A stretch of 39,282 nucleotides of DNA from Oscillospiraceae bacterium (GTDB lineage Bacteria > Bacillota > Clostridia > Oscillospirales > CAG-272): the NCBI GenBank assembly GCA_015064555.1, contig SVRZ01000022.1:1-39282 (forward strand), given 5' to 3'. This document shows, piece after piece, positions 4,423-24,789 of this stretch (position 1 is its first letter; every line of letters begins with the position of its first letter). The notes beneath the pieces are model-generated. The model was not told the origin of the DNA and ran no database searches. It saw only the letters and a program-made list of their open reading frames with translations. The position numbers were made by a program, and so were the translations under genes.

Positions 4423-5649
4423 TCAGGTCTGTACGTATTTTGTATCCTCGGACTCCTTGAACTTGTAGTACTCGTTTACAAGGCTTCGGAAGCCGTAGGA
4501 TTTTATAGTCGGATATCTCAATCGGTAATTTGTTTTTCCGTGCCTGCCCGTGTAGATATAACGGATGCAATTTATTGCATACTCGTCAATAATATGCAGA
4601 CTTTTTGCCGTATTGATAGACGGAAAATACCAAAGACTCCAGGTGATATCGTTATGCCTCGGGTTATCGTAAAGCTTGCGGTTGAATATCCTGATAAATG
4701 CCTTTACCGCGCCCTCGGGGCGCGCATTTTTGCGGCATCTCCAGCGAACGAGTGAGCGAGCCTTTCTGCGCATCTTTCCTTTTATCTTTTCCAGCGAAAC
4801 GGTAGAGATATCGACCTCTTTGCCGGTTATCGAGAAGCCTAAGAATTCCCACGGCTCGCCGGGCGAGGTGCGAAACTCCTTCTTCTCATTTACGGTAAGA
4901 AGATTATCTGCAAGGTGCTTCTTTATGAGTGCCTCGGATGCATCGATCTCTTCCTTTGTTTTTGCAAAGGTGATTATATCGTCCGAATATCTGGCATAGG
5001 TGAGCCCCTTTTCATAGAACAGACGGTCAAGGTCGGCAAGATATACGTTAGCAAGGAAGCCCGAGATAGGTACACCTGCCATTATTCCCTTTCTGCACTC
5101 GATGATCTCGCCCTCAAATCTGGCACGGGGCTCACGCAATACGCGCTCTATAAATTTAAGCGTGCGCGAGTCGTCTGCAAGGGCGGCAGCTGCCTTTTTC
5201 AAAACGCTGTCGGTATCTATCGAATTAAAATAGTCATGAATATCCACCTTGTAGCTGTAAAGCGAGCCGATATCGCGCCTCGACAGTATCTTGCGGATAG
5301 CCTGCTTTACGCCTATACGCTGACGGAAGGAATAAAGATTTGGTGTGAAAAGATAATCGTATTTTCTCGAGAGCATATATGCTAGAAGCTTGAATACATA
5401 ATTTTCGGCACGCGGAAAGACGAATACCTTTCGCTTCTTTCCTGTGCTTTTTTTATTAAGCTCCACGAGCGCAGGCAATGAAATATCTTCACCCGAATAT
5501 ATAGCCTCGGCAACTCTCATATAACGGCGCGAATCTATGAATGCGCGCAATTCGCGCTCCTCATATTCAAAGAAATGGCCTCCGTTTTTCTTGTATTCGT
5601 AAAATTCCTCCCATGCCTTCGGGTCGGAAATTCTGTCTAAAAGACTCAT
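4423..5649 (-). CDS. Stand-alone reverse transcriptase
   Basis: 408 residues with the ordered RT motifs: fingers region KKRKVFVFPRAENYVFKLLA (71-90), PNLYSFR (103-109), first catalytic aspartate D136 in YKVDIHDYFNSID, MAGVPISGFLANVYLADLD (190-208), catalytic box YSDD (221-224) and EFLGF (268-272). A further 130 residues carry a conserved-looking thumb or RNA-binding segment (about 334-397: WYFPSI, IRYIYTGRHGKTNYR, GFRSLVNEYY). There is no endonuclease, maturase zinc finger or protease, and no group II intron boundary was seen, so this is not an ordinary mobile intron. The catalytic residues look intact. It lies downstream of a structured RNA in the same orientation, as in retrons and defence-associated RTs. 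I cannot assign it to a named group. The start has AAAAAGG 11 bases upstream. Confidence 0.9.
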   Translation of the reverse strand: MSLLDRISDPKAWEEFYEYKKNGGHFFEYEERELRAFIDSRRYMRVAEAIYSGEDISLPALVELNKKSTGKKRKVFVFPRAENYVFKLLAYMLSRKYDYLFTPNLYSFRQRIGVKQAIRKILSRRDIGSLYSYKVDIHDYFNSIDTDSVLKKAAAALADDSRTLKFIERVLREPRARFEGEIIECRKGIMAGVPISGFLANVYLADLDRLFYEKGLTYARYSDDIITFAKTKEEIDASEALIKKHLADNLLTVNEKKEFRTSPGEPWEFLGFSITGKEVDISTVSLEKIKGKMRRKARSLVRWRCRKNARPEGAVKAFIRIFNRKLYDNPRHNDITWSLWYFPSINTAKSLHIIDEYAINCIRYIYTGRHGKTNYRLRYPTIKSYGFRSLVNEYYKFKESEDTKYVQT

Positions 5650-5710
5650 TTTAAAAATTACCTTTTTAAAAAGTTGATTTCTTCCTATATTAAATGTATA
5701 GAGAGATTTC

Positions 5711-5743
5711 GCTTATATATAGATTTTCAGTTTATATATAAGC
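5711..5743 (-). other. Hairpin in the RT leader
   Basis: An AT-rich inverted repeat, 5711-5720 with 5734-5743 (10 bp, extendable by one or two pairs), lies 60 nt before the RT start codon on the minus strand. It is not followed by a clear U-run and could protect or regulate the RT message. Confidence 0.5.
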
Positions 5744-5749
5744 AATTCA

Positions 5750-5774
5750 AGGTCGGGTGACAAGCACCCGACCT
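5750..5774 (-). other. Perfect GC-rich hairpin between the ncRNA and RT
   Basis: AGGTCGGGTG (5750-5759) pairs perfectly with 5765-5774 around a 5-nt loop. It directly follows the 3' arm of the ncRNA closing stem. Without a U-tract on the minus strand it is a poor intrinsic terminator, so it may mark the 3' end of the RNA or act as a processing or attenuation stem. Confidence 0.55.
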
Positions 5775-5779
5775 CTTAT

Positions 5780-5967
5780 ATATCAAGGCGACGGAAACGG
5801 CTTAAACACCGAATATGAAATTATTTATGATTTATGGAATAAATCTTAAATAATTTCTTATTCGGTAGTGTACAAGGCTGCACATAGGGACACCGTCTGC
5901 AAGGCACTAATACTCCCTATGCTTCCCCCTTCGCAGACGCATATAATGCATTCCATCGCCTCAACAT
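5780..5967 (-). ncRNA. Structured RNA upstream of the reverse transcriptase
   Basis: Read on the minus strand, the 406-nt gap between metA and the RT gene folds as follows. A closing stem pairs 5951-5967 with 5780-5796: a 10-bp core (5951-5960 with 5787-5796, one G-U) plus 7 outer pairs with several G-U. Inside are two interlocked stems, 5933-5939 with 5894-5900 (7 bp) and 5914-5921 with 5883-5890 (8 bp), an H-type pseudoknot. Then comes a 26-bp hairpin, 5808-5835 with 5839-5866, broken only by two A-A mismatches and closed by a 3-nt loop. The order (5' closing arm, compact msr-like part, long msd-like hairpin, 3' closing arm, RT gene) matches retrons. No convincing promoter was seen, so it may be made from metYA read-through. 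Confidence 0.65.
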
Positions 5968-12943: not shown

Positions 12944-14923
12944 ATGAACACAACACTTTACAATTTTTATATTCAAGATCGTTCATACAGAGAAACATAC
13001 AGAAAAACTATCGACAGAGATCTCGCACACGAATTCAGCGAAGCAGGACTTTCCGACGAGGAAAGAGTATGCCGCAGATTTGAAATTCTCTGCGAAGCTG
13101 AGGAAGCGCATATACACGATTTCGAAAAGATCGTGATGCTCAGAACTGTAAAAAATATTCCCGATTGCTTCACCGAGGAGGAATGGCAGGAGCGCAGAGA
13201 AAGAGGATTTATCCACGAGAACGGATACGTCTCAAACCTCTGCCCCAACTACGCACGCGTCATATCCTCAGGTCTTCTATCCTGCCTTGAGGGCGCGGAT
13301 GAATATCGCACAAGAGTGATAAATGCTATTATTTCGCTTACCGATAAATATCTTGCGGCTGCAAAAACGGCAGAGAGAAGCGACCTTGTTGAGATCTTCA
13401 CGCAGATACCGCGATACGGCGCACGCAATTTCCGCGAGGCACTTCAGTTCTTCCGTATATTGCACTTTGCGCTTTGGCTTGAGGGTGATTATCATAACAC
13501 GGTAGGCCGCTTTGATCGTTTTATGTATCCTTATTTCAAGGCGGATATGGATGCCGGAGTCTATGACGAGGACTCGGCACTTGAGCTTATTGAGGACTTC
13601 TTCATTTCATTCAACAAGGATTCGGATCTCTACTTTGGTCAGCAGCAGGGCGACAACGGTCAGAGTCTTGTGCTCGGCGGTATAGATGAGAGTGGCAAGG
13701 ACTGCTATAATCTTCTTTCTAAGCTTTGCCTGAGGGCATCAATGAATTTAAAGGTCATAGATCCTAAGATAAACCTCCGCGTCAGCAAATCGACTCCGCT
13801 CTCGGTGTATGAGGAGTGCACGAACCTCACCAAGGCGGGGCTCGGATTCCCTCAGTATTCAAACGACGACGTTGTTATACCCGCACTCGAAAAGCTCGGC
13901 TACAGCCACGAGGATGCAGTTAATTACGTTGTTGCCGCCTGCTGGGAATTCATCATCCCCGGATGCGGTAACGATATCCCGAACATCTGTGCTCTGAATC
14001 TTCCTATGATAACCGATGCCGCAATAAGAGAGACTATACCGACGGCAAAAGACTTCGACGAGGTTCTTTTTGCGGTAAGAGATAAGATATTTGACGAATG
14101 CGAGGCTATGATAAAGCAGGTGAACCGGGGTGTTCTTGTCGCTCCTTCGCCCTTTATGGATATTCTCCGTGACGGCAAAAAGTATAACAATTTTGGCATA
14201 CACGGATGCGGTATAGCGGCTGCAACAGATGCCCTCTACTCGGTGAAGCAGCATATATTCGACAACAAGGACGTAACCCCTGAGGCGCTTATCGAGGCAC
14301 TCGATACCAACTTTGAAAATGCCCCGGAGCTCTTACATCTGCTCCGCTATGAGACACCCAAGATGGGACAGGGCAGAAGACTTGTTGATATGCTTGCGGG
14401 CTTCATAATGGATGATTTTGCCGATGCGCTCAAGGGACACAAAAATACCGCAGGCGGCAGATTCAGAGCCGGCACGGGTACTGCAATGTTCTATCTTTGG
14501 CATGCTTCAGAGCTCGGCGCAACGGCAGACGGAAGGCGCGCAGGCGAGCCCTTCGGAGCAAACTTCTCTCCCTCTCTGTATATAAAGACTCAAGGACCGC
14601 TTTCGGTAATCGACTCGTTTACCTCTAATAAAATGGCGAAGGTGATGAACGGAGGTCCCCTAACTCTTGAATTTGACAGTGCTATCTTCAACGGCAAGGA
14701 CAGTCTTCGCAAGGTTGCATCGCTTGTCAAATACTTCATCGAACGCGGCGGGCATCAGCTTCAGCTCAACTCTGTGTCGCTTGAGGCTATGAAGGCGGCG
14801 CAGGAAAATCCCGAGCTTTACAAGAACCTTGTGGTAAGAATATGGGGATGGTCTGCATACTTCGTTGAGCTTGATAAGGAATTCCAGGATCACGTTATGA
14901 TGCGTCGGGAGCACACGGTTTAA
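12944..14923 (+). CDS. Glycyl radical enzyme of unknown substrate
   Basis: 659-residue member of the pyruvate formate-lyase/glycyl radical superfamily. The C-terminal radical loop is RIWGWSAYF with the radical glycine at G635. The thiyl cysteine should be C333 in AACWEF, with E335 where many family members have the catalytic base (GCxE). ATADGRRAGEPFG (526-538) is the usual pre-loop motif. Two features are uncommon: CWE instead of GCVE, and WGW in place of the usual SGY/AGY around the glycine. At 659 residues it is about 100 or more shorter than PFL, CutC or the diol dehydratases, mostly at the N-terminus. The activase gene overlaps its stop codon. The reaction cannot be named from sequence. 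Confidence 0.85.
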   Translation: MNTTLYNFYIQDRSYRETYRKTIDRDLAHEFSEAGLSDEERVCRRFEILCEAEEAHIHDFEKIVMLRTVKNIPDCFTEEEWQERRERGFIHENGYVSNLCPNYARVISSGLLSCLEGADEYRTRVINAIISLTDKYLAAAKTAERSDLVEIFTQIPRYGARNFREALQFFRILHFALWLEGDYHNTVGRFDRFMYPYFKADMDAGVYDEDSALELIEDFFISFNKDSDLYFGQQQGDNGQSLVLGGIDESGKDCYNLLSKLCLRASMNLKVIDPKINLRVSKSTPLSVYEECTNLTKAGLGFPQYSNDDVVIPALEKLGYSHEDAVNYVVAACWEFIIPGCGNDIPNICALNLPMITDAAIRETIPTAKDFDEVLFAVRDKIFDECEAMIKQVNRGVLVAPSPFMDILRDGKKYNNFGIHGCGIAAATDALYSVKQHIFDNKDVTPEALIEALDTNFENAPELLHLLRYETPKMGQGRRLVDMLAGFIMDDFADALKGHKNTAGGRFRAGTGTAMFYLWHASELGATADGRRAGEPFGANFSPSLYIKTQGPLSVIDSFTSNKMAKVMNGGPLTLEFDSAIFNGKDSLRKVASLVKYFIERGGHQLQLNSVSLEAMKAAQENPELYKNLVVRIWGWSAYFVELDKEFQDHVMMRREHTV

Positions 14924-15747
14924 TGGATGGGATCATCTTTGATATAAAGGAATTTGCAGTCCATGACGGAGACGGAGTGCGTACAACTGTATTTATGAAG
15001 GGTTGCCCCCTCAGGTGCGCATGGTGCCACAATCCCGAAGGGCTCTCCCCCTCCCCTGAGCTCTACATAAAGCACAGTCGCTGTCTGAAATGCGGTCTTT
15101 GCCTCCGCGGATGCAATCATCCGGACTGCAAGCCGTATTCGCGGTGCTTACACGTTTGCCCCTCAGATCTCGTTTCGGTGGTAGGCAAGAGCTATTCCGC
15201 AAGCGCGCTTGCCCGTATACTCCTTGAAAAAGCCGATGCACTTAATGCACTCGGAGGCGGCGTTACCATCTCCGGCGGCGAGCCGCTTATGCAACCGCAA
15301 TTTGTCCGAGAGCTACTCTCAATGCTAAAAGGAAAGCTTAACAGGTGCATTGAAACGTCCGGATATGCCACAAATTCGGTCTTTCGCTCGGTGGCAAAGG
15401 AATGCGATAAGATCATCATGGATATCAAGATAGTCGACAAAAATATGCACAAAATGTACACACAAGTTGACAACACGAGGATAATAGAGAATCTGAAGTG
15501 GCTGAAGTCATCAGGCATACCTCATATATTCAGAACTCCGCTTATCCCCGGAATTACCGATACTCCTGAAAATCTTTCAGCTATTTCCGAGCTGATAGGA
15601 AATGACGAAATAGAGCTATTGCCCTATAATACACTAGCGGCGGCAAAATACGAAAGTGTCGGTAGAAGCTTTACTTTTGAATATGATCCTTCCGCTTTAA
15701 AGGCTCCGGATCTCACTATATTCAAGAATGCGACAATAAGAAAATAA
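14923..15747 (+). CDS. Glycyl radical enzyme activase (radical SAM)
   Basis: 274 residues. The radical SAM cluster motif CPLRCAWC gives C28, C32 and C35 (CxxxCxxC). A ferredoxin-like insert with C54, C57, C60, C64 and further cysteines at 69, 75 and 79 could bind auxiliary iron-sulfur clusters, as in the non-PFL type of activases. GGGVTISGGEP follows at about residue 110. It would abstract hydrogen from G635 of the upstream enzyme using SAM. The ATG at 14923 overlaps the TAA of that gene, so expression is coupled. A strong terminator follows. Confidence 0.92.
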   Translation: MDGIIFDIKEFAVHDGDGVRTTVFMKGCPLRCAWCHNPEGLSPSPELYIKHSRCLKCGLCLRGCNHPDCKPYSRCLHVCPSDLVSVVGKSYSASALARILLEKADALNALGGGVTISGGEPLMQPQFVRELLSMLKGKLNRCIETSGYATNSVFRSVAKECDKIIMDIKIVDKNMHKMYTQVDNTRIIENLKWLKSSGIPHIFRTPLIPGITDTPENLSAISELIGNDEIELLPYNTLAAAKYESVGRSFTFEYDPSALKAPDLTIFKNATIRK

Positions 15748-15868: not shown

Positions 15869-18800
15869 TCAGATAAACGTTTTTGCTTCGCCGCCTGCAA
15901 GGGTGATCATCTTGATAGCCTGGAGTGAGAACTTATCAGCTTCCACAGTAAGGCGTTTGGTCATTGTTCCCTTTGCGAGAACCTTGATCCTACCGACCTT
16001 AGGACCGATAATGTGCTTCTTCTTCAGCGACTCAAGATTTACAACCTCACCGTCCTCGAAGTTCTTGCAGATGTCATCGATATTAATCTCGACCATCTTA
16101 CCTGTTCTGGTTATCCTGATAACCTTAACAGCCTTGGCTGCTACGGCATCGGTAACAATCTCATCCGCATGCTTAGCATCGGTAAATACAGGCTCTGCCA
16201 CAATCTCTTCGACGGGTTCTTCGACGGGTGCTTCTTCAACTACCGTTTCTTCGACAGGAGTCTCTTCAACAACCGCTTCTTCAACAGGAGTCTCTTCGAC
16301 AACTGCTTCTTCAACGGGAGTTTCTTCAACAACTGCTTCTTCAACAGGAGTCTCTTCGACTACCATCTCTTCAACAGGAGTCTCTTCGACAACCGCTTCT
16401 TCAACAGGAGTCTCTTCAACAACTGCTTCTTCAACGGGAGTCTCTTCGACAACTGCTTCTTCAACAGGAGTCTCTTCGACAACTACCTCTTCAACAGGAG
16501 TCTCTTCAACAACTGCTTCTTCGACAGGAGTCTCTTCAACAACTGCTTCTTCAACAGGAGTCTCTTCGACAACTACCTCTTCAACAGGAGTCTCTTCAAC
16601 TACCATCTCTTCAACGGGAGTCTCTTCAACAACTGCTTCTTCGACAGGAGTCTCTTCGACTACCATCTCTTCAACGGGAGTCTCTTCAACTACCATCTCT
16701 TCAACGGGAGTCTCTTCAACTACCATCTCTTCAACGGGAGTCTCTTCGACAACTACCTCTTCAACAGGAGTCTCTTCGACAACTGCTTCTTCAACAGGAG
16801 TCTCTTCGACAACTGCTTCTTCAACAGGAGTCTCTTCGACAACTGCTTCTTCAACAGGAGTCTCTTCAACAACTGCTTCTTCGACAGGAGTCTCTTCAAC
16901 AACTGCTTCTTCAACAGGAGTCTCTTCGACAACTACCTCTTCAACGGGAGTCTCTTCGACAACTGCCTCTTCAACGGGAGTCTCTTCGACAACTACCTCT
17001 TCAACAGGAGTCTCTTCGACAACTACCTCTTCAACAGGAGTCTCTTCGACAACCGCTTCTTCAACGGGAGTCTCTTCGACAACCGCTTCTTCAACAGGAG
17101 TCTCTTCGACTACCATCTCTTCAACGGGAGTCTCTTCGACAACCGCTTCTTCAACAGGAGTCTCTTCAACAACCGCTTCTTCAACGGGAGTTTCTTCGAC
17201 AACTGCTTCTTCGACAGGAGTTTCTTCTACAGGAGCTTCCTGTTTATGGCTATCGATAAGCGAATCGACATCTTCCTCACGGAGGATGGTGGATGCATCG
17301 AGCTTAACACCGGCGGGAAGAATTATCTTCATCAGTCCGCGCTTTGCAAGCTCGGCATTAGTTTCATAGTCCTTATGGTAATCAACCTCAGGCATCTTGC
17401 CCTGGGCGATACTCATAGTCTTCATAAGCTCATCGATAAGCTCAAGAGCATACTTGAGAGCTCTTGCACTCCTTACCTTCATAAGCATAGGAAGATGAGC
17501 AAGCTTGGGATCGCCGGATACATCATTAAAGTGATACTTATTGACGTTGTATTCCGCAGGGTTAAGAGCAAGATTCAAGGTCAAGGTCTTGCCCTTGATA
17601 TTGACTCTCACAAGCTGATTTCTTCCCTTGGAGAAGGTTTCATAGTTCCAGCTTGTTCTGGACTTAACCGACTTGTAGGAAAGGATACGATTCTTGATCG
17701 CGGAATAGTAGTCCTGAATCTCGGCATCGGACTGAATAAGTCTTGACATGAACGAGCTTCTGTATCTGATGAGAACTACGTTTCCTTCCACCGTGATGGT
17801 ATCATCAGAAGAAATCTTAGGAACAATAGCTTCCTTGGTCTCGGTGTCTGCAGCTTCGGTAGCAACAGGCTCTTCGGCTACTTCCTCGGGAACAACTTCC
17901 TCAACAGTTTCCTTCTCTACAGGAGCTTCAACATCATCGTGGTCATAGAGGAATACCTCCTCGCGACCTGCGGTTACACCGTTCTCGCCGTTGATAAGCT
18001 TACCAACATCTGCCTCTCTGATGTCAAGCTCGCCGTCAATGGTAACGCCGGCAGGAAGAATAACCTTCACTAAGCCGCGCTTTGCAAGGCTTGCGTTGGT
18101 TTCATAAGGCATATGGTAATCAACTGCAGGAATCTCTCCCTGTTCAATTCCAAGTGCGCTCATGGCGTCACTGATAAGCTCGAGCGCATACTTAAGCGCT
18201 CTGTCGCTCTTGACCTTTATGAGCATAGGAAGCTTTTCAAACTTGGGATTATCAGAAAGATCGGTGAAGTGGTATTTTGTACCTTCATATTCCTTGGGAT
18301 CAAGCGCAAGATTCAGAGTGAGAGCCTTGCCCTTCAGATTCAGCTTTACGCACTGAGTTCTTCCCTTTGTGAATATTTCATAGTTCCAGCTTGTTCTGGA
18401 TTTAACTCCCTTATAAGAGAGAATGTAATTTTTAATGGTTGTGTAGTAGGTCTGCAGATTATCACCCGACTGGATAAGTCTTGAGGTGAAGGAGCTTCTG
18501 TAATGAACATATACTACCTCGCCATCAACAAGAACGCTATCTTCTTCGTTTGCGGCGATAACAGGTACCTCTGCTACAGGTTCCTCAACGACGGGTTCCT
18601 CTGCAACAGGTTCCTCTGCAACAGGTTCCTCAACGACGGGCTCCTCTGCTACAGGCTCCTCTACAACAGGCTCCTCTACAACAGGCTCCTCTGCAACAGG
18701 TTCCTCTACAACAGGCTCCTCTACAACAGGCTCCTCTGCGACAGGCTCCTCAACGACGGGTTCCTCAACGACGGGCTCCTCTGCAACGGGTTCCTCAACG

Positions 18801-20695
18801 ACAGGCTCCTCTTCTACAACAGGTTCCTCAACGACAGGTTCCTCTACAACAGGCTCCTCTGCGACGGGTTCCTCTACAACAGGCTCCTCTGCAACGGGTT
18901 CCTCTGCAACGGGTTCCTCTACAACAGGTTCCTCTGCAACGGGTTCCTCAACAACAGGCTCCTCTACAACAGGCTCCTCTGCGACAGGCTCCTCAACGAC
19001 GGGTTCCTCTGCAACAGGTTCCTCAACGACGGGTTCCTCTACAACAGGCTCCTCTGCAACGGGTTCCTCAACGACAGGCTCCTCTTCTACAACAGGCTCC
19101 TCTGCAACGGGTTCCTCTACAACAGGTTCCTCTACAACAGGTTCCTCTGCAACGGGCTCCTCAACGATAGGCTCCTCTTCTACAACAGGTTCCTCTGCAA
19201 CGGGTTCCTCTGCAACGGGTTCCTCAACGACAGGCTCCTCAACGATAGGCTCCTCAACGATAGGCTCCTCTTCTACAACAGGTTCCTCAACGACAGGCTC
19301 CTCAACAACGGGCTCCTCGACGACAGGTTCTTCTACTACAACTTCAACAGTCTCGGTAGAATCTTCCTCTATATCGGAATTTTCAGCAAGATTATCGTTA
19401 TTTTTGGGAGATTCTGCGTCTGCTGAACTTACTGTGGAAACATTGTCTGCAGCCTCTCCCAAAGTAGGGGTGGTGTTGGTCGGAGCTCCTTCTGACACAT
19501 TAGATTTTGCGATGGGTTCTGACGCGGAATAAGTATCGGGTGTGTAGTCCTCCGCTCCCGTTGTATCGGGAGTGGTGGGCTTTTTGGGCTCCTCAGTCTT
19601 GGGAGCGGTAGGCTTAAGAGCATCTGCCTCAGGAGTCCTGGGAGCTCTCTTATTACCCCTCTTGATGATGATTATGATAAGTATTGCGCCGATAAGAATG
19701 AGAGCAATAAGTATGATAAGAATTACCAGCCAGTTGCTCGAATCCTTGATCTCTGCAATAGCATATACGGAGAAGTGATCGGTCTCGAAGCAGATCTTTC
19801 CGCCATCGATGTAAGACTCGATAAGAACAGGATCTCCGCTCTCGGGAATGTAGTAAATAGCAAGATCTGCATCAGCATATTTCTCGGGGATAACTAACGT
19901 AACCTTGAACGTACCGTGAGAACCGTCGAAGGTGATACCGGGATAAGAGATATCGTATGCAGCGATTATCTTACCCTTCTTGCCTTCCTCAACGAAGTCC
20001 TTAAGATTGTACTTCTTGTAATCTTCATATTTGTCGGTTACGGTAGGAGTAGCAGTTTCGGGAAGCTTGTTAGGACCTATGGTAACGATATCATCCTCGT
20101 AGCCGTCGTTAGTATTTTCATCGGGCTTAACGTAGTTAGGATCATTCTCACCGCACTTGGTGCACTTGCCGTCTACGTAGTTATGATCGCAGGGAGGTAC
20201 GGGAACGTCATGTCCGCAATCATCGCACTTGCCGTTTGCATCTGTATCGGTGTGATTGGGCTTAGCCTCGATAGCATTCTTTTCGCACTCGGTGCACTTA
20301 ACTGCCGTGGTGCAATCGCCATCGTCTTCACCTGCAGTATGAGAAGCCTTTGCCTCAGTAGTTACTGCGTTACATACCGAACAGGTAATTGCAGTGGTGC
20401 AATCGCCATCATCGGCATTGGGAATGTGATCCTTGGTGAGCTTACCTGCACCGGTCTTCCAGGACTCAAAGTCGGTAATGGGAGTGGTGCAAGCTTCATC
20501 CTCGAAGAGGTTGTTACAGCCGGAGCACTTATAGTAATCCTTCCAGCCGGGAGTAGAACAGGTTGCTTCCTGTCCGAGCTGCTTCTGACCGTTCGAGCAG
20601 GTGGTGTGACCGAGTGCAGGAGTGATTACGTATTCACAAACGGTACACTTTACAGGATCATGCTCGGTTGCGGCATCTCTGTCGGGAGTATGAGG
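15869..20695 (-). CDS. Giant surface protein, C-terminal part (TM anchor, EPV repeats, uL15-like domain)
   Basis: Open frame of 1608 codons that continues the 20650-24789 gene after a one-base frameshift. It contains no ATG, GTG or TTG for its first 399 codons (20695 to 19499), so it is not an independent gene. In order: cysteine/histidine modules (CTVC, CSGC, CSVC, CTEC, CDDC, CTKC), a beta domain, one membrane span (about 19662-19736, NWLVILIILIALILIG) followed by basic KRGNKR, then a cytoplasmic tail: an acidic EEPVVEEPVA block (about 18550-19345), two copies of a ~150-residue domain (VYVHYRSSFTSRLIQS ... LKYALELI), a block of 10-residue VEETPVEEAV repeats, and a C-terminal domain resembling the end of ribosomal protein uL15 (VNLESLKKK, LTVEADKFS, AGG). 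Confidence 0.8.
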   Translation of the reverse strand, partial: PHTPDRDAATEHDPVKCTVCEYVITPALGHTTCSNGQKQLGQEATCSTPGWKDYYKCSGCNNLFEDEACTTPITDFESWKTGAGKLTKDHIPNADDGDCTTAITCSVCNAVTTEAKASHTAGEDDGDCTTAVKCTECEKNAIEAKPNHTDTDANGKCDDCGHDVPVPPCDHNYVDGKCTKCGENDPNYVKPDENTNDGYEDDIVTIGPNKLPETATPTVTDKYEDYKKYNLKDFVEEGKKGKIIAAYDISYPGITFDGSHGTFKVTLVIPEKYADADLAIYYIPESGDPVLIESYIDGGKICFETDHFSVYAIAEIKDSSNWLVILIILIALILIGAILIIIIIKRGNKRAPRTPEADALKPTAPKTEEPKKPTTPDTTGAEDYTPDTYSASEPIAKSNVSEGAPTNTTPTLGEAADNVSTVSSADAESPKNNDNLAENSDIEEDSTETVEVVVEEPVVEEPVVEEPVVEEPVVEEEPIVEEPIVEEPVVEEPVAEEPVAEEPVVEEEPIVEEPVAEEPVVEEPVVEEPVAEEPVVEEEPVVEEPVAEEPVVEEPVVEEPVAEEPVVEEPVAEEPVVEEPVVEEPVAEEPVVEEPVAEEPVAEEPVVEEPVAEEPVVEEPVVEEPVVEEEPVVEEPVAEEPVVEEPVVEEPVAEEPVVEEPVVEEPVAEEPVVEEPVVEEPVAEEPVVEEPVAEEPVAEEPVVEEPVAEVPVIAANEEDSVLVDGEVVYVHYRSSFTSRLIQSGDNLQTYYTTIKNYILSYKGVKSRTSWNYEIFTKGRTQCVKLNLKGKALTLNLALDPKEYEGTKYHFTDLSDNPKFEKLPMLIKVKSDRALKYALELISDAMSALGIEQGEIPAVDYHMPYETNASLAKRGLVKVILPAGVTIDGELDIREADVGKLINGENGVTAGREEVFLYDHDDVEAPVEKETVEEVVPEEVAEEPVATEAADTETKEAIVPKISSDDTITVEGNVVLIRYRSSFMSRLIQSDAEIQDYYSAIKNRILSYKSVKSRTSWNYETFSKGRNQLVRVNIKGKTLTLNLALNPAEYNVNKYHFNDVSGDPKLAHLPMLMKVRSARALKYALELIDELMKTMSIAQGKMPEVDYHKDYETNAELAKRGLMKIILPAGVKLDASTILREEDVDSLIDSHKQEAPVEETPVEEAVVEETPVEEAVVEETPVEEAVVEETPVEEMVVEETPVEEAVVEETPVEEAVVEETPVEEVVVEETPVEEVVVEETPVEEAVVEETPVEEVVVEETPVEEAVVEETPVEEAVVEETPVEEAVVEETPVEEAVVEETPVEEAVVEETPVEEVVVEETPVEEMVVEETPVEEMVVEETPVEEMVVEETPVEEAVVEETPVEEMVVEETPVEEVVVEETPVEEAVVEETPVEEAVVEETPVEEVVVEETPVEEAVVEETPVEEAVVEETPVEEAVVEETPVEEMVVEETPVEEAVVEETPVEEAVVEETPVEEAVVEETPVEETVVEEAPVEEPVEEIVAEPVFTDAKHADEIVTDAVAAKAVKVIRITRTGKMVEINIDDICKNFEDGEVVNLESLKKKHIIGPKVGRIKVLAKGTMTKRLTVEADKFSLQAIKMITLAGGEAKTFI
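15872..16110 (-). other. uL15-like C-terminal domain
   Basis: The last ~80 residues of the giant protein contain DGEVVNLESLKKKHII, IKVLAKGTMTKRLTVEAD and KFSLQAIKMITLAGG, the pattern of the ribosomal protein uL15 C-terminal region. This is a part of the CDS above, not a separate gene, and would lie on the cytoplasmic side of the membrane. Confidence 0.6.
16205..17245 (-). repeat. About 34 tandem 30-bp repeats
   Basis: A 30-bp unit encoding VEETPVEEAV or a close variant (AVVEE, VVVEE, MVVEE) is repeated about 34 times. Variation is almost confined to one codon (GCA/GCG, GTA, ATG) and silent positions, so the array is young or kept uniform by recombination. Confidence 0.9.
18550..19345 (-). 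repeat. Acidic EEPVVEEPVA repeat block
   Basis: About fifty 15-bp units (EEPVV, EEPVA, EEPIV), with an occasional extra Glu, encode the stretch just inside the membrane anchor. It is expected to form an extended, highly negative, proline-broken rod or disordered tether. Confidence 0.88.
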
Positions 20696-23600
20696 CTAAG
20701 AGTGTCGTGATACTCACATCCAACTCTCTGGCACTCATGATAATGTCCGTCCTCGACACCCGTCCATGCGATTGCCATATCGTGATTATCGGGATCAATT
20801 GCAATTGTAAGATCTACGATTTCGGTTTTGCCGTCTGCCTCGAAATGCTTATGGCAAACATCACAATCCTGGTGCGCCTTGGTACCGGTCGCAACACAGG
20901 TTGCTGCAACCTCTTCCTTCCATGCATTTGCAGAGAAGGTATGGTCGCCCATAATATCGCTTACCCACGTCTCGGTGGTGCTTGCAATATTACAATGCTC
21001 GCAAAGGTAATAGAACTGCTTGCCGGTCTGGCAATCGCCGGTACCTTCTACGTAGTAGCTGAGGTTGGTATCCTTCTTTACGAAGTTATGCTCGCATTCA
21101 GGATCGGCAGGCTCTATAATTTTCCATTCAAGGTCTGCAAGAGCACTGTTGATAAGCTTATAATTATCTTTGTCATATGCAAGAGTAAAGGTAGCGGTGT
21201 ATTCGCCAATCGCAGATGCCGAATTGTTTGTGTAATTTGCAACGACACCTTCAGGAAGATTCTCTATCTCAACGGTGAATACTGTTCCGTTATGCTGTAC
21301 GAAGGGAGCAGAATAATTCCACTTAGCAGCAATCATATCGATGGGTGCTTTGTTTATTACCCAGGTGAGAGTATACTCGGTCTGTCCATCAAGCGTGTAG
21401 TTAGCATTAACGGGAGTAAGGGTTGCTACAGCGGCATAGCCTGCTTCGTTTGCAAGCGTTGCCTTGTTGTTATCATAACTAACGGTGACATTTGCGGGAA
21501 CACCTACAAGAAGAACGGTCTTATCGGTCTTGTCATAGGTGAATGCGCCGTTATAATCCCAGGTGATACCCGAAAGAGTTATAGTCTGGGGAGCAATAGT
21601 CCAAGAAGTAGATGTCGCAGGACCACCCGTTACAGAATAGTTAGAGCTATAGCTGTAAGTCGCGGTATAATTAGCGGCGTCGGTACCGACGTTACCGGAT
21701 ACTGCAAGGTTAAAGTCCGCAGGAAGAGTGGGCAGGTTCTTAAGCTCTACCTTCTGCTCTTCTCCGTTATAGGTCAGTGCTACATCGGTCCACGAAACAC
21801 CGGTGAAGTCAACAGTCTTAGGAAGGATTTCCCAAGTAAGTGCTGCGGGAGTATTGATAACCTCAACGTTACCGCCCTCGTCATCGTATTCGAGGCTGTA
21901 GGTAGCGGTAAGCTTAGTAACATTGGTTGCCTTATTGTTCGCATAGGTAACAGTACCAACAAAGCCTGCGGGAAGATTTTCAAGCTCTACCTTCTGCTCT
22001 TCTCCGTTATAGGTCAGTGTACCGGTACTCCACACAACATCCTTGAAGTCGATCTTGAGAGTTTCGATATTCCATGCCTCGGTAAGAGTAACGGTACCGT
22101 CCTCATCAGCGCCCTCAAGAGCATAGTTCGAAGTTGTGGAAAGAACTGCCTTGATCACATAGTTGCCTGCATTTCCCTGAGAGTCACCCTCGTACTCAAC
22201 GGTAACGTTCTCGGGAAGGTTTACAAGCTTGGGAAGATACTTAACGCCCTTTGCATAGGTGAATACAAGCCGATCCCAGCTTACATTATCAAGACCGATG
22301 GTTTCGGGATTAATTACCCAGTTCTGCGCCTCGGGAGCATTCTTTACCTCGATATTCGCTTCATCATAGGTAAGAGTGTAGCTTGCGGTATAATTACCTG
22401 CATTGGTAGCAGTGTTACCGGAATATACAACGCTGACATACTCGTCAGGAAGATTCTCAAGCACTACCTCGTGCTTGGTTCCGTTATAAGTGAAAGCGCC
22501 GGTATAGTTCCACTTAACGCCAAGCTCGCTGAAATCGAGAACCATCTTGTTAATGGTTACGTTAGTAGAAACGGTAACAGTCTTGCCCCAAGCGGTAACC
22601 TCGCAGGTGTATACGCCGCTGGAAGCAACAGTCGCATCAGTGATGGTGTAGGTTGCAGCGGTTGCACCTTCAATGGCCTTACCGTCCTTGTACCACTGAT
22701 AAGTGAAGGAGGGATTGCCGGTGGAAGAAACGGTTGCACTGAGAGTGTAATCCGCACCGGGGAGATAATTCTCGTTGATATCCTCGGAAGGAGCTACCCA
22801 GAACTCGCCCTTGGGATAAAGAACGATATCGCACTCGGGCATTACGGTAACAGTATTGCCGTTTGCATCTACCCATTCAACAGGCTTTCCGTTCTCGTCA
22901 AGCACCTCATTGCCAAAGTATGCAACGTTGCCTCCTACGGGAAGGAATCCGTCAAGATGAACGGTAGTATCGTTAAGCATATACGTAACTCTGTATATGT
23001 CAAGGAACTTAACGGTAAGCTCAGCCGAGATGTTCATTTCCTCTCTGCCGATAACTCCGGATACGAAATCTGCAAGATACTCGTAATCGGAAGGAAGAAG
23101 GTTCTTGAGAACGTTTACGATGTTGAAGTTTGCGTCCTCCTTCGCGTGGAAGACACCATTGCCCTCATATACGTCGAATATGGTGTTATCCATAAACTTA
23201 TCGGGAATCTTGGATGCACCGATAAGAACGAGCTTCTTAGCTTTATTGTAAAGGCCCTCAAACTCCTTTACCTTGTTAATGATCTGATCCTCGGTGTACT
23301 TGCTGAAGTCGAAGTACTCGCCGAAGTGTCTTTCAAGGAAGTCGCTGTTAAGAAGTCCGTCAAAATCAATAGCCTCAAGCACGGTGATGATCTCGTCAAA
23401 GGTAAGCTCGCTTACGAATGCTTCGATATCAGCGCCGTCCTTAGAGAATACTCTGAATGCCTTGTGCTTGATATACTCGGGAACCTTGTCGGTCGCAATA
23501 GCCTTATTGATAGCTCTGTTGAGTATGGATGCGAACTCATCGGGGATGAGAAGCTCAACGGAATATGTACCGTCTTCCTTTATCTCAACGTCGATATGAC

Positions 23601-24789
23601 TCTCGACTATGGACATAAGGGTTCTGATCTCGGAGCAATCGCCCTCAAGACCGAGATTTACTCTGATATCAAACGTACCGAATGCGAAATCAAGAGAAAC
23701 GTCATAAGAGAAGAGCTTCTCAAAATCTTCATCGGTGTAATCCTTCATTTCCGCAGGTCTGGGAAGTGCAAGGACAAGAGCCTTTATTGCGCTGAGATTT
23801 ACGGAAGCACCCTCCTCAAAGGAGAAGACCTCGAGCATCTCGGTGCCTGCAATGTTATCCTTAACGGAAACACTGTTGAAGGCTTTGATGAAGTTAAGAA
23901 TAGTTTCCTTATTAAGAGCGAAGCCGCCGTTCTGCTGAACGCTTACAACATTTTCTTCGATCTTGCTGTTAACATTTGCCTTAACGCCAAACTCACCCTC
24001 GGTAACCTTCTTGGTTTCCTCTGTGAGCGCTGCCTTTACTTCATCGGGGGTTGCGTCCTCGGCGATCTCGGGTACAACAACGGTACCCTCTTCGATTTCC
24101 TTTGCGTAAAGCTTCTCAAACTCCTCAACGCTGTCTACGGTATAAACCGCATCAATAACGTCGGGAAGGATGTTATCAACTACGTCAAGGATCTCCTCCT
24201 TGACACTATCGGTAAGCTCATCTGCTCCGATATACTCGTCGATACCCTTCTGGAGAATAAGGTCGAAGCCTCCGTTCTGGACAGACTCGATCTTTTCCTT
24301 GATGAACACCTTGTCATCAATGTCAAGCTCTTCAAGGCTGTCTGCCTGGAAGTATGACTTAAGGAATTTTTCAAGAAGGCTGTCTGCCATAGAGGAAATG
24401 TCTTTTCCATTTCCTTCATCTGCAGCAAGCGTGAACACCATTTCGGACGCTGTTTCGTTGAATACAACATCTCCGAGGATAGTATCCATAGCATACTGCG
24501 TAACCAGGGCGATTACCTGATCCTTAAGCGCAATTACATCACTCTTGGTGATCTCCTTGTACTTCGCATAATCTGTCTTGATGCGAATGTCAAGCTGCGC
24601 GGGATTTCCGCCCTTGGGTGAGGTATACTCGAAAGTATACCACGCGGTGTCGAACTCTTTCGTGACGTCGGATGAGCCGCTAGCGGGTTCGTTAGCAGCG
24701 AATGCGGTTACAGCAAGAGTGCTGAACAGCATCACGACGACCATCAGGAGAGCAACTACCACTCTGGATTGCCAGCTGATTTTTTTCAT
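20650..24789 (-). CDS. Giant surface protein, N-terminal part (signal peptide, ectodomain, Ig and MBG-like repeats)
   Basis: 1379 codons as read; the last ~14 are out of frame after a shift near 20695. Signal peptide 1-31 (ending AVTAFA). Residues 32-660: a mixed helical ectodomain with no recognised family. Then an Ig-like domain (about 690-770; YQWYKDG, SGVYTCEV) and six MBG/YDG-like repeats of about 80 residues (each begins like KWNYTGAFTYNG, contains VxLENLP and ends in a W-x-I strand). Then a C-H-rich module (CEHNF, CEHC, CDVC) to HDTLS. With the downstream frame the protein would be about 2,970 residues, secreted N-out and anchored by one span. RBS GAGGTGAAG and a strong promoter at 24874-24902. 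Confidence 0.85.
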   Translation of the reverse strand: MKKISWQSRVVVALLMVVVMLFSTLAVTAFAANEPASGSSDVTKEFDTAWYTFEYTSPKGGNPAQLDIRIKTDYAKYKEITKSDVIALKDQVIALVTQYAMDTILGDVVFNETASEMVFTLAADEGNGKDISSMADSLLEKFLKSYFQADSLEELDIDDKVFIKEKIESVQNGGFDLILQKGIDEYIGADELTDSVKEEILDVVDNILPDVIDAVYTVDSVEEFEKLYAKEIEEGTVVVPEIAEDATPDEVKAALTEETKKVTEGEFGVKANVNSKIEENVVSVQQNGGFALNKETILNFIKAFNSVSVKDNIAGTEMLEVFSFEEGASVNLSAIKALVLALPRPAEMKDYTDEDFEKLFSYDVSLDFAFGTFDIRVNLGLEGDCSEIRTLMSIVESHIDVEIKEDGTYSVELLIPDEFASILNRAINKAIATDKVPEYIKHKAFRVFSKDGADIEAFVSELTFDEIITVLEAIDFDGLLNSDFLERHFGEYFDFSKYTEDQIINKVKEFEGLYNKAKKLVLIGASKIPDKFMDNTIFDVYEGNGVFHAKEDANFNIVNVLKNLLPSDYEYLADFVSGVIGREEMNISAELTVKFLDIYRVTYMLNDTTVHLDGFLPVGGNVAYFGNEVLDENGKPVEWVDANGNTVTVMPECDIVLYPKGEFWVAPSEDINENYLPGADYTLSATVSSTGNPSFTYQWYKDGKAIEGATAATYTITDATVASSGVYTCEVTAWGKTVTVSTNVTINKMVLDFSELGVKWNYTGAFTYNGTKHEVVLENLPDEYVSVVYSGNTATNAGNYTASYTLTYDEANIEVKNAPEAQNWVINPETIGLDNVSWDRLVFTYAKGVKYLPKLVNLPENVTVEYEGDSQGNAGNYVIKAVLSTTSNYALEGADEDGTVTLTEAWNIETLKIDFKDVVWSTGTLTYNGEEQKVELENLPAGFVGTVTYANNKATNVTKLTATYSLEYDDEGGNVEVINTPAALTWEILPKTVDFTGVSWTDVALTYNGEEQKVELKNLPTLPADFNLAVSGNVGTDAANYTATYSYSSNYSVTGGPATSTSWTIAPQTITLSGITWDYNGAFTYDKTDKTVLLVGVPANVTVSYDNNKATLANEAGYAAVATLTPVNANYTLDGQTEYTLTWVINKAPIDMIAAKWNYSAPFVQHNGTVFTVEIENLPEGVVANYTNNSASAIGEYTATFTLAYDKDNYKLINSALADLEWKIIEPADPECEHNFVKKDTNLSYYVEGTGDCQTGKQFYYLCEHCNIASTTETWVSDIMGDHTFSANAWKEEVAATCVATGTKAHQDCDVCHKHFEADGKTEIVDLTIAIDPDNHDMAIAWTGVEDGHYHECQRVGCEYHDTLSLILPTEMPQPSMIL

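Follow-up and report, generated by a model that had tools for sequence, protein, structure and literature searches.

A UG26 reverse transcriptase and its RT-5 noncoding RNA: a covarying pseudoknotted fold and a candidate template loop

A reverse transcriptase gene and a structured RNA on one strand

The window, by which we mean the whole 39,282-nucleotide stretch of DNA analyzed here, carries on its minus strand an open reading frame (ORF) for a reverse transcriptase (RT) and, 5' of it, a structured noncoding RNA (ncRNA). The two, and the elements of the RNA, are as follows.

4423..5649, minus strand: ORF of the UG26 RT, 408 amino acids, with a single YSDD at residue 221
5780..5967, minus strand: ncRNA of the RT-5 type, recognized by an Rfam RF03026 match at 5837-5942, by model R1, and by its fold
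5951..5967, minus strand: 5' strand of the closing stem P1 (17 bp); 11 of the 12 modeled P1 pairs show double changes
5780..5796, minus strand: 3' strand of P1, from pairing and covariation
5939..5949, minus strand: small hairpin P1b, from folding and covariation (helix 2); one base of its final pair is also claimed by the pseudoknot
5933..5939, minus strand: 5' strand of the pseudoknot, CGUCUGC; 98.9% of cells paired, with covariation
5894..5900, minus strand: 3' strand of the pseudoknot, GCAGACG, in the P2c loop; covariation
5915..5923, minus strand: 5' strand of P2; covariation
5882..5889, minus strand: 3' strand of P2; covariation
5872..5883, minus strand: GU-N8-GU at fixed spacing (candidate template T1), present in 112 of 114 distinct RNAs; P2b includes its middle part
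5807..5867, minus strand: P3, extended to a long hairpin in the fold of the window RNA
5795..5807, minus strand: candidate template loop GUUU-AAGCC-GUUU, an A-B-A' pattern with a period of 9, between P3 and P1, a position as in DRT10

The RT matched the PADLOC profile RT_UG26 over residues 1-399 with 539.6 bits (E 9.4e-163), followed by a general RT model (2.3e-37) and RT_UG27 (3.2e-31). The other named UG families in PADLOC (UG27, UG17, DRT9, UG4, DRT3a, and DRT2) scored from 107 to 78 bits, the best of them at 106.7 bits, far lower than the full-length UG26 match; the UG17 and UG28 profiles gave 102 and 93 bits, respectively. RVT_1 is the sole Pfam domain. A previous sequence-only reading of this DNA had described an intact RT with a YSDD box and a conserved C-terminal extension, and both descriptions proved accurate. 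The ORF at 5649..4423 has its YSDD at residue 221, the YxDD box and the catalytic residues are present in 100 of the 100 proteins of alignment A4, and in the C-terminal extension Y357 (100/100), Y379 (99), G386 (99), L390 (97), and V391 (97) are conserved in the same alignment. Y357 and Y379 are possible protein primers; S389, conserved in 79/100, is a less likely one. By its profile match, the RT is a member of UG26, a little-studied family of the UG/DRT RTs, and the profile scores, the cis-encoded RNA, and the classification of these enzymes indicate that it probably belongs to Class 2.

Retron RTs are marked by region X (NAxxH) and a VTG motif. The absence of region X had already been remarked upon from the letters; neither motif occurs in the window protein, and the best retron model reached 60.5 bits against a cutoff of 235, on which grounds the retron reading was rejected. 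The same reading had seen no group II intron features, in agreement with the results here: Pfam detects only RVT_1, the NCBIfam group II model gives 110.9 bits against a cutoff of 300 (about the score of UG27 in PADLOC), and the Rfam scan contained no intron RNA. The solved structures nearest in sequence are group II RTs (8.8e-18), then DRT2 (9e-10) and DRT9 (1.6e-4), and group II models and structures score as well as or above the best cross-matching UG profiles. The group II reading was also ruled out by a tree of 24 proteins, which included three UG17 RTs, two group II RTs, one unassigned RT, and three viral RTs. In this tree the window RT groups with those of loci L031 and L029 (support 100/97) within UG26 plus the three viral RTs (support 100/99), separate from the UG17, group II, and unassigned RTs; it thus lies outside the ordinary maturases as sampled by the two group II RTs. 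Long branches were flagged in this tree, and it places UG26 no closer to UG17 than to group II.

A single-sequence fold of the window RNA has an energy of -76.2 kcal/mol, compared with -44.1 (standard deviation, 4.15) for 200 dinucleotide shuffles (z -7.7), and 0 of the 200 shuffles was as good. Rfam RF03026 (RT-5) matches positions 5942-5837 with 47.7 bits, barely above the gathering score of 45.7; the match covers 106 nt, and its printed structure line, in which some positions are unprinted, contains neither P1 nor the pseudoknot. Model R1, from whose building the window RNA was excluded, matches at 5970-5827 (E 5e-10, 54.6 bits). By these matches, the window RNA is a member of Rfam RT-5. 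The 17-bp closing stem proposed from the letters was found exactly at 5967-5951 and 5796-5780, as was the pseudoknot, with CGUCUGC at 5939-5933 paired with GCAGACG at 5900-5894 and P2 formed by 5923-5915 and 5889-5882. The proposal of a new class of RT-ncRNA system did not survive: the RT (UG26) and the RNA (RT-5) have each been catalogued, so that the locus is a member of a known UG/DRT kind rather than a new class.

By eye, the gap between RNA and RT (5719-5776, minus strand) holds two further hairpin-like inverted repeats, GGTCGGGTG..CACCCGACC and GCTTATATATA..TATATATAAGC, the first of which is possibly a terminator. Elsewhere in the window, a 1209-amino-acid ORF (15869-19498, minus strand) has a ribosomal L15/L27A-like domain at residues 1137-1205, preceded by a long repeat region of the ETPVEEVVV type, and other parts match extensin and histone-like profiles. 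ORFs of 1379 (20650-24789, minus strand) and 1229 (20668-24357, plus strand) amino acids overlap almost totally on opposite strands; only the former has Pfam matches (Ig domains), so the latter is probably no gene. A glycyl-radical enzyme lies beside a radical-SAM protein, probably its activase (12944-15747, plus strand).

Conservation of the RNA fold and of an upstream partner gene

When 395 genomes from the window's family were searched with the UG26 profile, 92 gave matches (any RT, E 0.001), with 32 matches above 470 bits; the other genomes of the window's genus listed in this search had no match or weak ones, presumably to other RTs (G344, G352). Stricter searches, each counting the window's genome, were positive in 15 of 391 genomes of the class, 11 of 394 of the order, and 2 of 398 of the phylum. 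A scan of GTDB genomes found at least 542 relatives, of which the best 80 loci were kept; the titles of these 80 are mostly Clostridia, Lachnospiraceae, Ruminococcus, Oscillospiraceae, and the like, with one Bacteroidaceae metagenome-assembled genome (L086). Phage and plasmid records contained no match at E 1e-30; at 1e-7, 651 plasmid records matched, the 40 listed being for the most part group II RTs.

Homologous RTs carry the RNA upstream. Of the first 30 loci, 28 gave an Rfam RT-5 match; the others are L006, where DNA 5' of the RT is lacking, and L029, whose RNA Rfam missed but R1 caught. R1 was trained on 34 RNAs. It detects the RNA in 97 of the 100 RT loci searched, a count that includes the 34 training loci (L053, L089, and L094 are missed), and in 22 of 23 later loci, none of which was used in building it (L120 is missed). 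The stems proposed for the window are therefore present upstream of homologous RTs. Excluded from the set were loci with proteins identical to others (L034, L040, L047, L054, L065, and L099) and loci lacking upstream DNA (L006, L087, L105, and L114). The set of 119 RNAs reduces to 114 distinct ones; alignment A3 retains one spurious second match, in L069 (27.9 bits).

The fold is supported by covariation in 96 distinct aligned RNAs, in which 94.8% of pair cells are standard pairs and 719 cells show double changes, compared with 174 after shuffling, in an alignment fitted to the modeled structure. The pseudoknot stands outside the model; pairing holds in 98.9% of its cells, double changes occur in 32 (5.3 after shuffling), and sliding its strands abolishes the pairing signal. 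Covariation thus supports each helix and also the pseudoknot that the model lacks. With the UG26 assignment, these results uphold the sequence-only reading in its view of a DRT-like RT-ncRNA system with a genuine pseudoknot. In the consensus, P1 is followed by the 3-bp hairpin P1b, the first pseudoknot strand, P2b/P2/P2c (whose terminal loop holds the second pseudoknot strand), P3, a short loop, the 3' strand of P1, and often a U run. The long hairpin reported earlier is present at 5867-5807, but it is peculiar to the window's branch: most relatives have a short hairpin as P3, and the long form is seen in the window and in L031 and L029, the RNAs of its two nearest relatives.

Several loci depart from this arrangement. 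In L036, L045, and L104 the RT-5 RNA lies about 0.7 to 0.8 kb upstream of the RT start, with room for another gene. L089, L110, and L120 have UG26 RTs, and R1 finds no RNA in the DNA fetched; the DNA just 5' of their RTs encodes a protein with, by eye, a similar end, near GDQCAITNIRIKDS. R1 gave no match in L110 to L114, of which L114 has no DNA 5' of the RT and L111 only 236 bases. Four loci are on viral contigs, with RTs 34 to 40% identical to the window's and no R1 match; among them, the IMG/VR contigs L111, L112, and L113 (34 to 36% identical) form a firm clade that joins UG26 beside L017 with weak support (83/75).

A protein gene lies just 5' of the RNA on the same strand in 93 of the 118 RNAs with enough upstream DNA. 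The protein has about 150 to 215 residues (most 160 to 190), its gene ends a median of 9 nt from the modeled RNA (range, -9 to 199), and most members have conserved LVVELM, YLRFY, and GWWNTR stretches in the C-terminal half. Two members tested gave no Pfam match; our impression is of a nuclease-like fold. The partner is associated with the RT: in 146 genomes of the family (E 1e-10) it was found in 9, and all 9 carry an adjoining UG26 on the same contig, with the RT split over contigs or frames in two (G065 and G086). The same search found no partner gene in the window's genome. Among the family genomes up to G145, all assumed to belong to the 146, ten have UG26 below 1e-50, and the window's is the one without a partner. 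The partner is absent from the window, L031, and L029, as well as from L033, L050, and L130, which are near in the tree, and present in L035 and L042 of the same larger tree group. The window's branch either lost it or never had it.

The RT of the window is flanked by metA, an O-acetylhomoserine sulfhydrylase gene, and an ICMT-like gene, and ten neighbor proteins from five partner-less relatives gave seven housekeeping-type Pfam matches and three without any. The neighbors examined are thus housekeeping or unassigned genes and do not amount to a defense island; that argument was dropped, and location lends no support to a role in defense. In a comparison of insertion sites, metA was found in 12 of 12 genomes of the same genus and the window's ICMT gene in none within the fetched flank, so this comparison yields no clean empty site.

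A candidate template loop and its alternatives

As described in passages of the DRT10 preprint, the DRT10 template lies after the last stem-loop and before the closing strand, and an A-B-A' repeat lets the cDNA realign (PMC12632851); loop templates are likewise described in passages on DRT9 and DRT3a (PMC12483538, PMC13174585). By folding and eye, the loop past the last hairpin reads UAA-UAAUG-UAA and UCAA-CGGUAC-UCAA in two DRT10 loci (L116 and L142), and a third (L143) has no clear A-B-A' pattern. At the same place, most UG26 RNAs have a loop, NUUUAANNNN, that is some ten bases long and precedes the UUC of P1, and the conserved part of this P3-P1 loop is UUUAA (94 of 114 RNAs) or a close form. 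Direct repeats are seen in the loop in the window (GUUU-AAGCC-GUUU), L010 (GAUUU-AAC-GAUUU), L015 (GGUUUU-AAC-GGUUUU), L088 (CUUU-AACGC-CUUU), L130 (CUGUU-AAAUU-CUGUU), and L042 (UUUC-AAAGCCA-UUUC); in L031 and L029, the two nearest relatives of the window, only the U's are shared.

The loop holds a direct repeat of at least 4 nt in 44 of 114 RNAs, compared with 33.6 expected from swapping halves between RNAs (P 0.005) and 19.6 from shuffling letters; in the other 70 the repeat is 3 nt or shorter, and in 29 of these it is below 3. The letter before the U run is the same on both sides in 57 of the 109 RNAs with a usable letter pair (5 have none), versus 43.2 by swaps (P 0.002). Swaps within protein clusters, for which 89 RNAs remained after those without a letter pair or with an RT outside alignment A4 were dropped, gave P values of 0.0002 to 0.015 for letter agreement (46/89) and 0.006 to 0.07 for repeat length. 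Letter agreement was 39/77 (P 0.011) after removal of RNAs more than 85% alike, 19/40 versus 15.9 (P 0.18) at 75%, 6/21 versus 7.6 (P 0.83) at 70%, and 4/15 versus 5.0 (P 0.79) at 65%; in an earlier test, with 97 RNAs, P was 0.02, rising to 0.38 once RNAs more than 70% alike were taken out. The choice of statistic followed inspection of the data, 14 loop segments were anchored or corrected by hand, and 22 more were typed in. The U's of the 3' repeat copy are also required for P1 pairing. The direct repeat in the P3-P1 loop is thus suggestive, its support being lost once close relatives are removed. The predicted cDNA repeats, complementary to this loop, are GGCTTAAAC for the window, GTTAAATC for the L010 type, and AATTTAACAG for L130.

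We consider the chances about even that the locus is a two-part UG26 system, a UG/DRT RT with its RT-5 ncRNA, in which a loop of the RNA templates repeat cDNA for phage defense. The RNA, in which P1 encloses the small hairpin, the pseudoknotted P2, and the last hairpin P3, would be bound by the RT, as its relatives suggest. The RT would copy the short single-stranded P3-P1 loop, P3 setting the 5' boundary of copying, and the direct repeat at both loop ends would allow the nascent cDNA to step back and be elongated once more, producing tandem repeats; in the window, the repeat product would be the complement of GUUUAAGCC. We infer an antiphage function for this repeat cDNA from kinship alone. 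In most relatives examined, the conserved protein encoded upstream would be a third part, probably an effector or regulator of the cDNA. A further proposal, in which UG26 would be a bacterial telomerase-like repeat adder whose single small RNA unites a covarying pseudoknot, a boundary hairpin, and a template loop equipped with a repeat for realignment, is tentative, and we lean somewhat against it. If true, DRT10 would be joined by another family that adds repeats in this way; SLATT would be replaced by a new partner protein, and the window's branch would work without any known partner protein.

Other readings of the same RNA have to be weighed against copying of the P3-P1 loop. In one of them, the RNA is no template and acts only as a cofactor or as the regulatory leader of the mRNA for the RT. 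This would fit its position directly upstream of the RT on the same strand and the terminator-like U run that often follows P1, but an extra 0.6 kb or so parts RNA from RT in L036, L045, and L104, and, according to passages of the DRT3 preprint (PMC13174585), RNAs of this kind serve as templates in the Class 2 systems studied to date; we think this reading unlikely. Conservation of UUUAA, or a close form, in the loop could also mean that the RT slips on its UUU as template and makes poly-dA or A-rich DNA, given that the DRT9 template is described, in parts of the source, as a conserved U tract of its ncRNA (PMC12483538). The UG26 loop mostly has three U's and then AA, and its flanking letters covary somewhat, for which a pure U template would have no need, and we regard this reading as quite unlikely.

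A different template within the same system, and the chief competitor of the P3-P1 loop as the site, is offered by T1, the GU-N8-GU just 3' of P2; here the P2b strand GGACC would compete from within the RNA and peel the cDNA off. The ten-base distance between the two GUs is kept in 112 of 114 distinct RNAs. This second conserved direct repeat counts against the P3-P1 loop, and P2, directly 5', could be a boundary. However, the segment between the GUs pairs and covaries with GGACC (GAACC:GGUUU, GGAUC:GAUCC, and GGGCG:CGCCC) and is thus a helix in the folded RNA, which weakens T1 as a template; in addition, the first GU is paired in P2, and the letters after GU show little identity covariation (P 0.015 to 0.64). 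We judge T1 distinctly improbable. Copying of the RNA in full or over a long stretch, by a rolling circle or in an msd-like manner as in DRT2 or retrons, would make a copied part of the long P3 of the window, L031, and L029, but P3 is short in most relatives and the window protein lacks the retron motifs, so that this reading seems to us highly improbable. The variable bulge that separates P2 from P2c was dropped by eye as a template site, as it tolerates large insertions (e.g., in L012, L070, and L084).

Place among known systems

UG26 and RT-5 form one system, which is new as far as the literature searched goes; the UG/Abi survey and the paper defining RT-5 lie outside that literature, so the link may already be in print. 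The conserved upstream partner is new within the same limits, as is the candidate template loop with its direct repeat, itself suggestive. Searches for RT-5 RNA with reverse transcriptase, and for RT-5 with RT-1, found nothing. For UG26, they found one relevant paper, which in the passages concerned lists it only among the RTs of cold-seep viruses, and no worked-out template, product, or partner; UG26 is absent from the main text of the DRT10 preprint (PMC12632851) and from passages of that on DRT3 (PMC13174585). The present results give bench groups a well-supported RNA fold, a predicted template and repeat unit for each system, candidate primers, and a co-occurring partner. If repeat addition is confirmed, this would suggest that telomerase-like synthesis is widespread among UG/DRT RTs and would provide a pseudoknotted bacterial RNA for comparison with telomerase RNA.

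DRT10 (UG17), as described in passages of its preprint, resembles UG26 in pairing a UG RT with an ncRNA encoded in cis (about 140 nt) and in having a closing stem, several hairpins, an A-B-A' loop past the last hairpin (suggestive in UG26), and a small accessory gene in the operon (PMC12632851). It differs in its RT family (102 bits for UG17 versus 540 for UG26 on the window RT), which forms a separate clade in the tree, in its accessory protein, which is SLATT in DRT10 and one without a Pfam match (two members tested) in the UG26 relatives of the window, and in its gene order, RNA-SLATT-RT in DRT10 and accessory-RNA-RT in UG26. R1 gave no match in the DRT10 locus L116. Membership of the window in DRT10 was rejected on the UG17 score of only 102 bits and the lack of a partner gene at the locus. 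DRT9 (UG28) is similar to UG26 in combining an RT with a structured ncRNA that has conserved U's in the presumed template, as far as passages of its description go (PMC12483538). It differs in that UG28 gives 93 bits on the window RT and in its long U tract, which is absent from the UG26 RNA. The core of telomerase RNA unites a template, a boundary element, and a pseudoknot in one molecule. The UG26 RNA, with its pseudoknot, candidate template, and putative boundary hairpin, would resemble it in these elements and differs from it in size and topology.
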